From positions 1-16,975 of the forward strand of contig JAJYLN010000030.1 in NCBI GenBank assembly GCA_021787665.1: a stretch of 16,975 nt of DNA, given 5' to 3'. A program made the position numbers and the translations under genes. The notes under the pieces are model-generated. The model saw only the letters and a program-made list of their open reading frames with translations, made no database searches and had not been told where the DNA came from. Numbering within the stretch: position 1 is the first letter of the stretch; each line of letters opens with the position of its first letter. The stretch comes from a bacterium (GTDB lineage Bacteria > JAMCPX01). Positions 440-3,705 of the stretch are shown here, piece after piece.

Positions 440-455
440 TGACATACTGCTGTCA
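440..455. promoter_or_regulatory. Inverted repeat, copy A (candidate WYL-regulator operator)
   Basis: TGACA-TACTGC-TGTCA is an interrupted palindrome. The identical 18-base string TGACATACTGCTGTCACT recurs at 1406-1423, and the similarity between the two copies continues for roughly 15 more bases. A strong ribosome binding site (aaggagg, 479-485) and an ATG at 492 follow, so the repeat sits where an operator or promoter would be. A diverged third copy lies before the WYL gene. Binding by that regulator is inference. Confidence 0.45.
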
Positions 456-491
456 CTCCCGCATGGCATTTTCGCATCTAAGGAGGATACC

Positions 492-632
492 ATGGTCTTG
501 TAAAACAAGGTGCTGGTTGTGGTGGTAACGGTAGCTGACCTGCAAAAAGATTCACGGCTCTCATTCAAGCGCAGGCTAAAAAACATCAAAGACTGGGGCA
601 TGTGGGTATCCGGGTATATCAAAGGGGAATAA
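492..632 (+). pseudogene. Short degenerate ORF behind a good ribosome binding site
   Basis: An AAGGAGG ribosome binding site lies 6 nt before the ATG at 492, but the frame meets TAA after three codons (501-503). The same frame is then open to the TAA at 630. It reads a valine-rich strand followed by a basic, amphipathic stretch (SFKRRLKNIKDW) and ends GYIKGE. With the stop read through this would be a protein of about 46 residues. Alternatively a GTG at 510 could start a 40-residue peptide, without a ribosome binding site of its own. I do not recognise the family. Inverted-repeat copy A is placed as the control region of this ORF. It may be a recently inactivated small gene, or chance. Confidence 0.3.
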
Positions 633-694
633 GCTGAGTATTTGTATTTGTTTTAAGAAAGGGGTAAAGATTAAGAATAAAGGGAAAGAAGTTC

Positions 695-1408
695 ATGGTA
701 GATGAAATTAGTATAAAAGCTTCACAGGAAGAAATAAACAATGAATTGCGTTCACTGTATCAGAAAAACTCTTCCAAACTTAAAAAACTTGTCCAAGATT
801 ACAAGGGAGCTTCTTGTCCACACCTTCTTTTCATACCCAGTTCATATCTGAGATGTAAGAATAAACTATTAGTTGTCGGCCAGCAAACAAACGGTTGGGA
901 CTGCAGTAGCTTAATTTCTTGTTGTTCAGACATTGTTGTTTCTCTTATGAAAGAATATGAGGAGTTCAATCTTGGCGAAAAATATGTTTCATCCCCTTTT
1001 TGGCAAGCCAGCATTGAATTCAATCAAATTATAAACCCCGACGACAAGAATAAACGTGCATTTCTTTGGTCGAATTTGATCAAAATCGACCAAGACGAGC
1101 ATCGGCCTGAACCTCAGCTTGAAGAAGCCGTTACATCACTTAACCTACTTCAATCCGAAATAAGGATAGCCAAGCCAAATGTCGTAGTGTGTTTCACAGG
1201 TCCATATTATGACGAACGTCTGCGATCAAGCTTTCCAAAAATTGAGTTTGTTCCCGTCAACCCAAACATTGCAACGAGGCAACTTGCAAAGCTCGTTCAT
1301 CAAAGATTACCTGAACTGTCATTTAGAACGTACCATCCTAAATATTTGAAATTATCGCATAAGTGGTGTTTGTTGAAATCAATCGGCAGACAAATAATTT
1401 CCGACTGA
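695..1408 (+). CDS. Uracil-DNA-glycosylase-like hypothetical protein
   Basis: A 237-residue soluble protein with no signal peptide or membrane segment. Its pattern resembles the uracil-DNA glycosylase superfamily fold: a first strand and turn KLLVVGQQTNGW (57-68), a second strand LWSNLIKID (124-132) comparable to the 'TNVVKC'-type strand of family 4/5 enzymes, a third strand PNVVVCFTGP (161-170), and a late TYHPKYL (212-218) like the HPS loop that contacts DNA. The first loop has Q-Q-T-N instead of the usual G-E-x-P, so classical glycosylase chemistry is doubtful. The family reading is an inference from motif order. Start ATG 695 follows an A/G-rich weak Shine-Dalgarno. The TGA stop (1406-1408) lies inside inverted-repeat copy B. 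Neighbours are small or broken ORFs, an ankyrin protein and a WYL regulator, all in AT-rich accessory DNA. Confidence 0.6.
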   Translation: MVDEISIKASQEEINNELRSLYQKNSSKLKKLVQDYKGASCPHLLFIPSSYLRCKNKLLVVGQQTNGWDCSSLISCCSDIVVSLMKEYEEFNLGEKYVSSPFWQASIEFNQIINPDDKNKRAFLWSNLIKIDQDEHRPEPQLEEAVTSLNLLQSEIRIAKPNVVVCFTGPYYDERLRSSFPKIEFVPVNPNIATRQLAKLVHQRLPELSFRTYHPKYLKLSHKWCLLKSIGRQIISD

Positions 1409-1421
1409 CATACTGCTGTCA
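1406..1421. promoter_or_regulatory. Inverted repeat, copy B (candidate WYL-regulator operator)
   Basis: Exact copy of TGACATACTGCTGTCA. Its first three bases are the stop codon of the preceding gene. The downstream context (acttccgcttggtatcttc) matches copy A (actcccgcatggcattttc) closely, so the conserved unit is about 35 bp and includes a GG(T/C)AT(C/T)TT stretch that could be a -10 region. It precedes the small membrane-protein ORF and the ankyrin gene. Confidence 0.45.
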
Positions 1422-1532
1422 CTTCCGCTTGGTATCTTCAGAGGATGAAAGATTTTACACGAAATCTTATCCCGTTAAGCGTTTTCGTTAGCTTATAGAA
1501 ATAAAGAGGCTTAACTATGGAAAGAGGAAGAC

Positions 1533-1706
1533 ATGGGCGGTTTGACTGAACTAATCTAGCATTTGCTTGAGGTGCCTTTTATTATGATGTTTTCTGCTTT
1601 CAAACTGATATTTTTTATCATCGGTGTCATAGCATTCATATATCAACCTATTCCGACGGCAATCATATTGCTGGGCTATTGTCTTATAAAAATAGCTAAA
1701 GAATAA
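1533..1706 (+). pseudogene. Small two-helix membrane protein with in-frame amber codon
   Basis: The ATG at 1533 has a good ribosome binding site (agaggaag, 1522-1529) and opens MGGLTELI before a TAG at 1557-1559. The same frame then continues HLLEVPFI, passes two adjacent ATGs (1584 and 1587) and ends at TAA 1704. Read through, it would be a 57-codon protein. The part from 1584 (40 residues) has two hydrophobic stretches separated by a Q-P-I-P turn and ends with a basic tail (IKIAKE), which suggests a hairpin inner-membrane peptide. A weaker GAGGTG (1570-1575) lies before 1584, so a shortened product by reinitiation is possible. The family is not recognised. A CAG-to-TAG change is the simplest explanation. 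The ankyrin gene starts 15 nt after its stop, so the two were probably cotranscribed. Confidence 0.45.
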
Positions 1707-1721
1707 AAAAGGGGGGACACA

Positions 1722-2612
1722 ATGCAAACCACTGCATTGATAAAGGCCATCAGGGAAAAGGATATAAAGCGGTTAACGCTGTTACTTGCAAACGGTGCTG
1801 ATGTTAATGAGGCAGACGAGCGCGGCTGGAAAGCTTTATTCGAAGCATCAAGCAAAGGTTATATGGACGTTGTTAAACTTCTTCTGGAAAATGGTGCAGA
1901 AATAAACGCACAAGATCGAATAGGCAGGACAGCTTTAGTAATTGCATCGGCCGAAGGTCATATCGACATGATAAAATTTCTTTTGGACCATGGAGCAATG
2001 ATCGATATTACATCGGAAAATACTCCAAAGGACTATAGACCGGATTCCATTTTATTCTGTACGATAGGTTATCCGGACATTACCAGACTTTTTTTACGAC
2101 ATGGGGCAGACGTGAACGCCAAAGACTCTCAAGGTTACACTGTCTTAGCATCGGCATTGGATGCTGAATGTCTGGATACTGCGTATGTCCTTTTGGAGCA
2201 TATTTCGGAGATGAGCGACATAAATGCCCGGACTCAAGAAGGTCATACCGCCTTGATGTATGCCGAGAAGAATGGTTACACGGATATTGTAAGGATTCTG
2301 AAAAATGCCGGAGCTAAAGATGATAACATTGAAACAGCCCTCATAAACACGGCGGGCATGACAGGCCGCATGGACATGATTGAATATTTTATAGGGAAAG
2401 GGGCCAACGTGAATGCTCAAGACGATTATGGTCATTCAGCCCTTATCGAGGCCACTCTTATCGAGGATTCTAAAATTATACAGTATTTGATAGATCATGG
2501 TGCCGATGTGAATATCAAAGATAATCAAGGTGTAACGGCATTGAGTGTTGCTCAACATTACGGATACAGGGATGTTATTGATTTGCTCAATAAAGCGGGT
2601 GCAAAGGAATAA
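1722..2612 (+). CDS. Ankyrin repeat protein
   Basis: A 296-residue protein made almost wholly of ankyrin repeats, about nine in tandem starting near residues 4, 37, 70, 107, 140, 176, 204, 239 and 272. Clear consensus pieces include NGADVNEADERG, NGAEINAQDRIG, HGADVNAKDSQG, GANVNAQDDYG and HGADVNIKDNQG. Repeats 3, 5 and 6 are irregular and carry insertions or a shortened loop. There is no signal peptide, transmembrane segment or catalytic domain, so it is a probable cytoplasmic protein-binding scaffold. The partner cannot be named. Start ATG 1722 follows a GGGGGG ribosome binding site with a 5-nt spacing. The gene lies between the small membrane-protein ORF and the WYL regulator. A scrap of similar repeat coding survives at about 3868-3915, so the locus may once have held a second ankyrin gene. 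Confidence 0.93.
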   Translation: MQTTALIKAIREKDIKRLTLLLANGADVNEADERGWKALFEASSKGYMDVVKLLLENGAEINAQDRIGRTALVIASAEGHIDMIKFLLDHGAMIDITSENTPKDYRPDSILFCTIGYPDITRLFLRHGADVNAKDSQGYTVLASALDAECLDTAYVLLEHISEMSDINARTQEGHTALMYAEKNGYTDIVRILKNAGAKDDNIETALINTAGMTGRMDMIEYFIGKGANVNAQDDYGHSALIEATLIEDSKIIQYLIDHGADVNIKDNQGVTALSVAQHYGYRDVIDLLNKAGAKE

Positions 2613-2642
2613 AGCAACAGGCTCATCTATCGTTAAAACTGC

Positions 2643-2666
2643 CGACATACTGCTTGCTGCTGTCAG
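2643..2666. promoter_or_regulatory. Expanded inverted repeat, copy C, before the WYL regulator
   Basis: GACATACTGC and TGCTGTCAGT match copies A and B but are separated by a few extra bases, which lengthens the element by 7 bp through a TGC-TTGC-TGC duplication. It ends about 30 nt before the start of the WYL gene. A possible promoter overlaps it: TTGCTG (2654-2659), 17 nt, TATATG (2677-2682). This is where an autoregulatory operator would be expected. The different spacing could give a different affinity from copies A and B. Confidence 0.4.
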
Positions 2667-2694
2667 TGTGCCTTGATATATGGTATATTAAAAA

Positions 2695-3705
2695 GTGGTT
2701 TTTATGGCTAACGAGACTGTGTCCAAATTTGCAAGGCTCAGAAAGAAGGCCGGTAAGCCTGCTGGCATATCCGGTAAGGTGATAAGCCTGCTTGATGTCT
2801 ATACCTTGATTGCCCAGAGCAAATTTCCTTCTGTCGATTCTCTTGCAAAGCATTGTGAAGCCTCACGACGCACGATCTACAGGTACCTTGAAATCATAAA
2901 TATGATCGATCCTATTGAATTCGACAAAGAACAGAAAGGCTACAAGTTCGTCAATAGTGACCGCATAAAAAAGGTATTTCTGTCAGACAATGAGTTACTG
3001 ATGCTCCTCATTATGGGAGAGACCGTATCGAACCTCGGCGGTAATTTTAAGAAATCCTTTCAGGACTTTGTCACCGATATCGCCTTTACAAGAAAGCTGC
3101 CTCCTGACAAACTGCCTCTGGTTATCAAAGCACCCGGGGCGATAGACACAGAGACTTCCGGTGAGTATTTCAGAATAATATCCGACAGCATAGCAAATAA
3201 CCGTTCCATAGATATTGTGTATACATCGTTATCCAAAGGCGAGACCACGGAGCGCAGGGTCGATCCTTACGGGCTGTTCTTCTACGAAGGTGCGTGGCAC
3301 GTGATTGGGTATTGTAACGTGAAAAAGGAGCTGAGGACATTCGCAATCGACAAGATACAGAGTCTTCAAGAGACGGACCACTACTTTGTAAAAGATACAG
3401 GCTTTGACTTGAAAGAGTCCCTGTCGGGTAGCTGGGGCATCATATTCAACGAGGACGCGGTCGATATTACGGTACGGTTTTCAAAGGACGTTGCGAGCTA
3501 TATCGACAGGCAGAAAAAGTGGCACCCTACCGAGATACGGAAGCGGATGCCGGATGGCTCCCTTTCGCTTTCGCTCAAGGTCACCGGTGTATCGGAGATC
3601 AAGGGGTGGATCTACTCGTGGATACCGCATATAGAGGTCCTCAAGCCGGCCTGGCTCAGGGCCGAGATCAAACAGGATCTATTACAGGCTGCGGAGAAGC
3701 TTTGA
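2695..3705 (+). CDS. Helix-turn-helix WYL-domain transcriptional regulator
   Basis: A 336-residue cytoplasmic DNA-binding regulator of the YafY/COG2378 type. An N-terminal winged helix-turn-helix covers about residues 32-75, with recognition-helix residues EASRRTIYRYLEI. A WYL domain lies at about 156-228, including RRVDPYGLFFYEGAWHVIGYC and RTFAIDKI. A C-terminal WCX region lies at about 255-333 and ends in the typical LKPAWLRAEI. WYL domains sense ligands, often nucleic acids or nucleotides; the family includes phage-defence repressors such as BrxR and CapW. The eponymous W-Y-L here reads W-H-V. The start could be GTG 2695 or ATG 2704; neither has a good ribosome binding site. An expanded copy of the local inverted repeat sits just upstream, suggesting autoregulation. 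It is the last gene of the AT-rich arm. Confidence 0.92.
   Translation: MVFMANETVSKFARLRKKAGKPAGISGKVISLLDVYTLIAQSKFPSVDSLAKHCEASRRTIYRYLEIINMIDPIEFDKEQKGYKFVNSDRIKKVFLSDNELLMLLIMGETVSNLGGNFKKSFQDFVTDIAFTRKLPPDKLPLVIKAPGAIDTETSGEYFRIISDSIANNRSIDIVYTSLSKGETTERRVDPYGLFFYEGAWHVIGYCNVKKELRTFAIDKIQSLQETDHYFVKDTGFDLKESLSGSWGIIFNEDAVDITVRFSKDVASYIDRQKKWHPTEIRKRMPDGSLSLSLKVTGVSEIKGWIYSWIPHIEVLKPAWLRAEIKQDLLQAAEKL

Follow-up and report, generated by a model that had tools for sequence, protein, structure and literature searches.

A palindrome recurring beside a WYL regulator gene as a probable activator site over a poor -35 element

WYL proteins are widespread bacterial regulators, and few of their binding sites are known. 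The closest described system for the locus reported here is DriD of Caulobacter crescentus, a WYL activator whose sites are centred on a non-optimal -35 element at a constant distance to the -10 element, with G-14 conserved, and whose DNA-binding domains flank sigma region 4 (PMC12340889). SiwR from Mycobacterium smegmatis is likewise an activator, and the 19-bp palindrome to which it binds lies between -35 and -10 (PMC10693628). PafB, one half of the actinobacterial PafBC, makes contact with the promoter at about -24 (as quoted in PMC12340889), and the inverted repeats bound by the repressor BrxR are located in front of the brxR gene itself, downstream of the -10 element (PMC9122601).

The window, i.e., the whole stretch of DNA analysed here, is a complete contig of 16,975 bp from a genome of 2.25 Mb in 35 contigs (features in Table 1). 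A motif scan of the window found the palindrome TGACATACTGCTGTCA in exact form at 440-455 and 1406-1421, and a third copy at 2643-2665 reads CGACATACTGC-TTGCTGC-TGTCA, that is CGACA-N13-TGTCA, which is 7 bp wider than the other two and, starting with a C, has one mismatch in the left arm as well. All three had been picked out in a reading of the sequence alone (hereafter the sequence-only reading), which had also rightly placed them in intergenic or stop-codon positions: copies 1 and 3 are intergenic, and copy 2 provides the TGA stop of the gene at 695-1408. The flanks that it had called identical are alike, with 89% identity over the 35-nt surroundings of copies 1 and 2. Allowing up to one mismatch, TGACA-N6-TGTCA occurs twice in the window, where 0.42 occurrences would be expected, and finding the same 16-mer twice, exactly, inside 1 kb of a 2.25-Mb genome (about 0.001 expected) is far beyond chance.

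Table 1. Features around the three palindrome copies (positions in the window)
Feature	Position	Strand	Basis or remark
Palindrome copy 1, TGACATACTGCTGTCA	440..455	+	exact match; homologous box and leader in G001, G004, G007
Extended -10-like TGG-CATTTT, 11 bp past copy 1; weak, 3/6 match	464..472	+	TG invariant, 11 family sites
Exported-protein pseudogene	492..629	+	tblastn/blastn vs L171:8141-8599; window sequence
Upstream neighbour gene, weak uracil-DNA-glycosylase-superfamily match below cut-off	695..1408	+	TGA stop inside copy 2
Palindrome copy 2, TGACATACTGCTGTCA	1406..1421	+	exact match; syntenic with L173
Extended -10 TGG-TATCTT, 11 bp past copy 2	1430..1438	+	sequence
17-codon ORF after copy 2 (MKDFTRNLIPLSVFVSL)	1445..1498	+	alike in G007
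40-aa hydrophobic ORF	1584..1706	+	G007 homologue disrupted by deletion
Ankyrin-repeat protein gene, predicted copy-2 target	1722..2612	+	Pfam Ank_2 2.4e-47
Palindrome copy 3, CGACA-N13-TGTCA, 7-bp expansion	2643..2665	+	window sequence
Alternative core promoter CTGTCA-18-TATATT with TG, overlaps copy 3 right half-site	2660..2689	+	promoter scan
Extended -10-like TGA-TATATG, 11 bp past right half-site of copy 3	2674..2682	+	sequence
HTH-WYL-WCX transcriptional regulator	2704..3705	+	Pfam; AlphaFold model, Foldseek

The genome-wide search with up to two mismatches that the sequence-only reading had proposed returned five places, namely copies 1 and 2, a one-mismatch box on another contig (C19:9251), and two places with two mismatches that look like chance, given that a control yielded one. 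The box at C19:9251 has the downstream tail common to the window copies and is the sole convincing extra copy in the genome; it abuts what we take, from our own reading of the sequence, to be the remnant of an IS256-like transposase. Each of the three copies found with up to one mismatch is followed by a -10-like element. A dispersed repeat family without a link to WYL genes was considered and rejected, since a 2.25-Mb genome holds a single convincing further copy, copies per genome are few, and exact copies of the box are associated with WYL genes in various phyla (see below).

The conserved GG(T/C)AT-type stretch that had been noticed downstream of the copies is present. It is an extended -10 element, and its distance of 11 bp from the palindrome puts the latter over a non-consensus -35. 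When the -10 hexamer is taken as -12 to -7, the palindrome is centred at about -31.5 with the -35 hexamer inside it, and the implied -35 elements of copies 1 and 2 match the consensus at only one or two of six positions. Across 11 sites of the window's family, conservation is 99% in the palindrome, 59% in the 20 bp upstream and 79% in the spacer, and all 11 have the TG of the extended -10.

In copy 3 it is the left half-site that is shifted by 7 bp. Because the right half-site keeps its 11 bp to the -10-like element and shares bases with a better core promoter (CTGTCA-18-TATATT), the promoter of the regulator gene may be less dependent on the regulator, or less tightly bound by it; matches of this promoter type around copy 3 are no more numerous than in shuffled sequence. 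Autoregulation through copy 3 is plausible. The expansion could possibly tune affinity, as had been suggested, and simple decay is an equally possible reading of it.

The regulator gene, with a possible alternative GTG start at 2695, encodes HTH, WYL and WCX domains in one chain of 333 aa, all above their Pfam cut-offs (HTH_11 26 bits, WYL 74.7, WCX 60.8), and is the only PF13280 gene found in a search of the genome; this one WYL gene adjoins three of the four boxes. Its WYL domain, the part to which the activating ssDNA binds in DriD, keeps one loop arginine (LRTF), while the second typical one is Ala. The AlphaFold model has a mean pLDDT of 84 and a pTM of 0.61, so that the relative placement of its domains is uncertain. 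In Foldseek, DriD (PDB 8tp8, 9pfq) is the top match, over the full length (E 1e-17), with PafBC, CapW and BrxR behind.

The likeness to DriD thus extends from the HTH-WYL-WCX fold to a palindrome on a poor -35 at a fixed distance to the -10 and to a conserved G-14. However, the two proteins share only about 20% identity, DriD has other targets, and its site, ATACGAC-N7-GTCGTAT, has only the GTC core in common with TGACA-N6-TGTCA. SiwR controls adjacent genes, as our regulator is predicted to do, and elsewhere the window's box precedes genes for DinB-superfamily and glyoxalase proteins, classes associated with SiwR; the window boxes themselves adjoin no DinB or glyoxalase gene, their neighbours being the ankyrin gene, the pseudogene, the UDG-like gene and the regulator. 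With PafBC the regulator shares the WYL-WCX architecture, and the PafB contact corresponds roughly to the right half-site here (-28 to -24), but PafBC is a heterodimer that binds a non-palindromic site, and only together with RNA polymerase. BrxR and CapW, which are WYL regulators of local defence genes, differ in being repressors with longer repeats downstream of the -10, whereas the box here lies upstream of a -10-like element, and they are structurally more distant.

A scan of a genome collection for the exact box gave at least 117 stretches, mostly from Bacteroidota and Bacillota, with others too. Among the matches listed, 33 of 118 exact copies (28%) had a WYL gene either just upstream in the same direction or divergent, compared with 286 of 23,600 random positions of the same loci (1.2%); these percentages are rough, because they rest on the matches listed and because the loci scored were also those from which the WYL detector was built. 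In at least 14 of the listed cases the TGA of the box is the stop codon of the WYL gene. The Mucilaginibacter of L069 and the Brevibacillus of L110 are examples of hosts in which an exact box directly follows a WYL gene. The distance to the -10 element shows a peak: among the listed matches, TAnnnT elements lie 11-12 bp downstream of the box in 53 of 74 (118 exact copies), and TAnnTTTG, the -10-type element of Bacteroidota, lies at 11 bp in 12 of 13. DinB-superfamily, glyoxalase and GyrI-like proteins are the commonest families encoded downstream of the box among these matches. Also among them, 72% of the exact copies elsewhere lack a WYL gene placed in this way, so the regulators may be trans-acting or come from other families. 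In 30 WYL loci picked by protein similarity, a number of N5/N6 palindromes near the WYL genes precede a -10 by 11 bp, with modest enrichment over other spacings. Neither a WYL box sequence nor a YafY-DinB operator was found in the literature searched, and the box sequence itself occurs in no paper searched.

We tentatively propose that a near-invariant 16-bp WYL box, placed 11-12 bp before the host's -10, could be a promoter code that WYL activators share in several phyla, among them Bacteroidota, Bacillota and the window's deltaproteobacterium-like lineage. If this is true, the direction of control and the targets would be readable straight from sequence. A box of fixed geometry beside WYL genes in many phyla would make the targets and mode of action of WYL regulators predictable and directly testable.

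Comparison with the upstream regions of WYL homologues, another proposal of the sequence-only reading, found like boxes at the promoters of WYL-containing operons in two relatives' loci, L176 and L178. Over 10 genomes of the family, the box followed by N10 to N12 and TAnnnT gave 16 rows versus none for the reversed control, where one box is counted twice with two gap lengths and some rows are the other-strand reading of the same box. In the genome G003 two boxes have the centre (T/C)ACCTC. One precedes an operon of AAA ATPase, WYL and PD-(D/E)XK nuclease genes, and the other a gene whose product shares 74% identity, over its first 35 residues, with that of a box target in G004; there the box has the centre TACTGC. 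The same AAA gene in G005 again has a TACCTC centre before it. Hence the centre has changed at both G003 promoters, that of the WYL operon and that of the target homologue, as would be expected of a shared regulator, in what are few cases. In G049 a like box, TGCCATACTCCTGTCA, stands before a DnaJ-WYL operon and once more before a small ORF.

G004, G006 and G007 carry boxes, and no full HTH-WYL-WCX gene was found in these incomplete MAGs; G004 and G006 have only a longer WYL protein, and WYL remnants are present in G001 and G007. The longer protein, of about 524-534 aa and distinct from the window's regulator, was seen in G004 (C8), G003 (C73), G006 (C76) and G008 (C267). The G003 operon (L176:2955-7079, G003:C44) is preceded by a WYL-type box and encodes an AAA ATPase, a regulator of the WYL kind and a nuclease of the PD-(D/E)XK/Cas4-like type. 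The ATPase is partly like IetA-type anti-phage ATPases, far below the curated cut-off, and the operon is possibly a defence module.

With respect to the genes beside the boxes, the sequence-only reading had counted the 492 ORF among the targets, but this is a pseudogene: set against L171:8141-8599, its reading frame stops at codon 4 and its middle has been lost in a large internal deletion, which leaves about 14 N-terminal and 33 C-terminal codons. In G007, which belongs to another genus, synteny runs from about the palindrome through to the stop codon of the ankyrin gene, at 83% identity, and 255 of 297 translated positions of the ankyrin homologue are identical. The DNA differences, 23, 14 and 58 by codon position, are consistent with purifying selection on the gene. 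Behind the ankyrin gene, G007 retains a stub of the 3' end of the WYL gene. The gene upstream of copy 2 is not a predicted target of it. The predicted regulon is small and partly decayed, consisting of the ankyrin gene, the pseudogene and the regulator itself; the small local regulon suggested earlier stands as far as the ankyrin gene is concerned, whose box is syntenic in G007, and loses the 492 ORF as well as the small membrane ORF, which is broken in G007.

On balance, these observations point to the palindrome being the WYL box of the 2704-3705 regulator, which would probably bind it and activate from over a poor -35, with a small local regulon. The two parts of this reading differ in strength. 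That the box is the regulator's binding site is very probable, since many unrelated bacteria have this box next to WYL regulators, and here the operator tied to a WYL regulator that the sequence-only reading had proposed holds up, both for the exact box across phyla and for the like boxes at the relatives' WYL operons. Given such binding, activation is likely: the position favours it, because the activators DriD and SiwR bind over or near the -35 and the repressor BrxR downstream of the -10, and with so poor a -35 hexamer the regulator would most likely recruit RNA polymerase. A dimer would read the TGACA and TGTCA arms, which flank the -35 position, with the extended -10 fixed 11 bp away, and would activate, as DriD does, by recruiting RNA polymerase once the regulator's WYL domain has received a signal, which by analogy would be a nucleic acid or nucleotide. 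The targets would be the ankyrin operon through copy 2, the decayed exported-protein gene through copy 1, and the regulator's own promoter through the widened copy 3.

The sequence-only reading had called the regulator a repressor, and this is probably wrong, given the poor -35 under the box and DriD as nearest structure. A WYL dimer covering the -35 and blocking RNA polymerase until a ligand releases it would use the same operator and regulator, and it has precedents in the WYL repressors BrxR and CapW (PMC9122601); furthermore, the box overlaps the core promoter and also stands at the regulator's own promoter, and an extended -10 can work without a -35, so that repression by occlusion is conceivable. 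We nevertheless consider repression unlikely, as the nearest structures are activators, the -35 has one or two matches of six, and the box lies over the -35 like the sites of DriD, and near the position of SiwR's, rather than downstream of the -10 as in BrxR.

If the box were instead read by a different, trans-acting regulator, with the WYL gene as a chance neighbour or former member, this would account for the family genomes that carry boxes and in which no full HTH-WYL-WCX gene was found, and for the many listed copies in other bacteria that adjoin no WYL gene. Such a regulator is very unlikely in view of the excess of WYL adjacency, in conserved orientation, among the matches listed, and of the joint change of the operator centre at the WYL operon and the target in G003; moreover, missing WYL genes can be gaps in the MAGs, and WYL stubs exist. 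The palindrome might also be the recombination site of an integron-like or MITE-like mobile element that spreads gene cassettes, as the copies have differing neighbours and lie close to contig ends, where small and often decayed genes form arrays, homology begins at about the palindrome, and one copy abuts the transposase-like remnant. The sharp left edge is expected of a promoter as well, though, and a mobile border would hardly stay, in many phyla, 11-12 bp away from whichever -10 element the lineage uses, or keep a consistent orientation to adjoining WYL genes (both among the matches listed), nor would it be found in so few copies per genome with a conserved palindrome and drifting flanks; we regard it as highly improbable.

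Returning to the activator site that we prefer, some further features of the box-bearing loci deserve mention. In L172:3322-3362 and L170:320-362, leader arms TATCC(C/T)C...G(G/A)GGATA span the -10 and the ribosome-binding site, and the arms are complementary, with paired changes between the two copies. A hairpin TATCC...GGATA sequestering the ribosome-binding site in the leader of the copy-1 family was considered and rejected: its covariation, measured over six sequences in a register one column off the one in which 90% of cells pair, did not exceed that of shuffles, and its left arm overlaps the -10.

Boxes persist while their neighbours decay (L173, L171, L170 and window 492-629): of the WYL gene, G007 and G001 keep only 3' remnants, and G000, G004 and G007 all have a broken copy of the exported-protein gene. 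Small genes, some of them toxin-antitoxin-like, are arrayed on the box-bearing contigs (L171:1-8599, which is G001:C117, and L170). Together with the frequent position of boxes close to a contig end, this suggests variable islands. At the far end of the window's own contig, an ORF at 16379-16867 matches the N-terminal domain of HsdM of type I restriction-modification systems.
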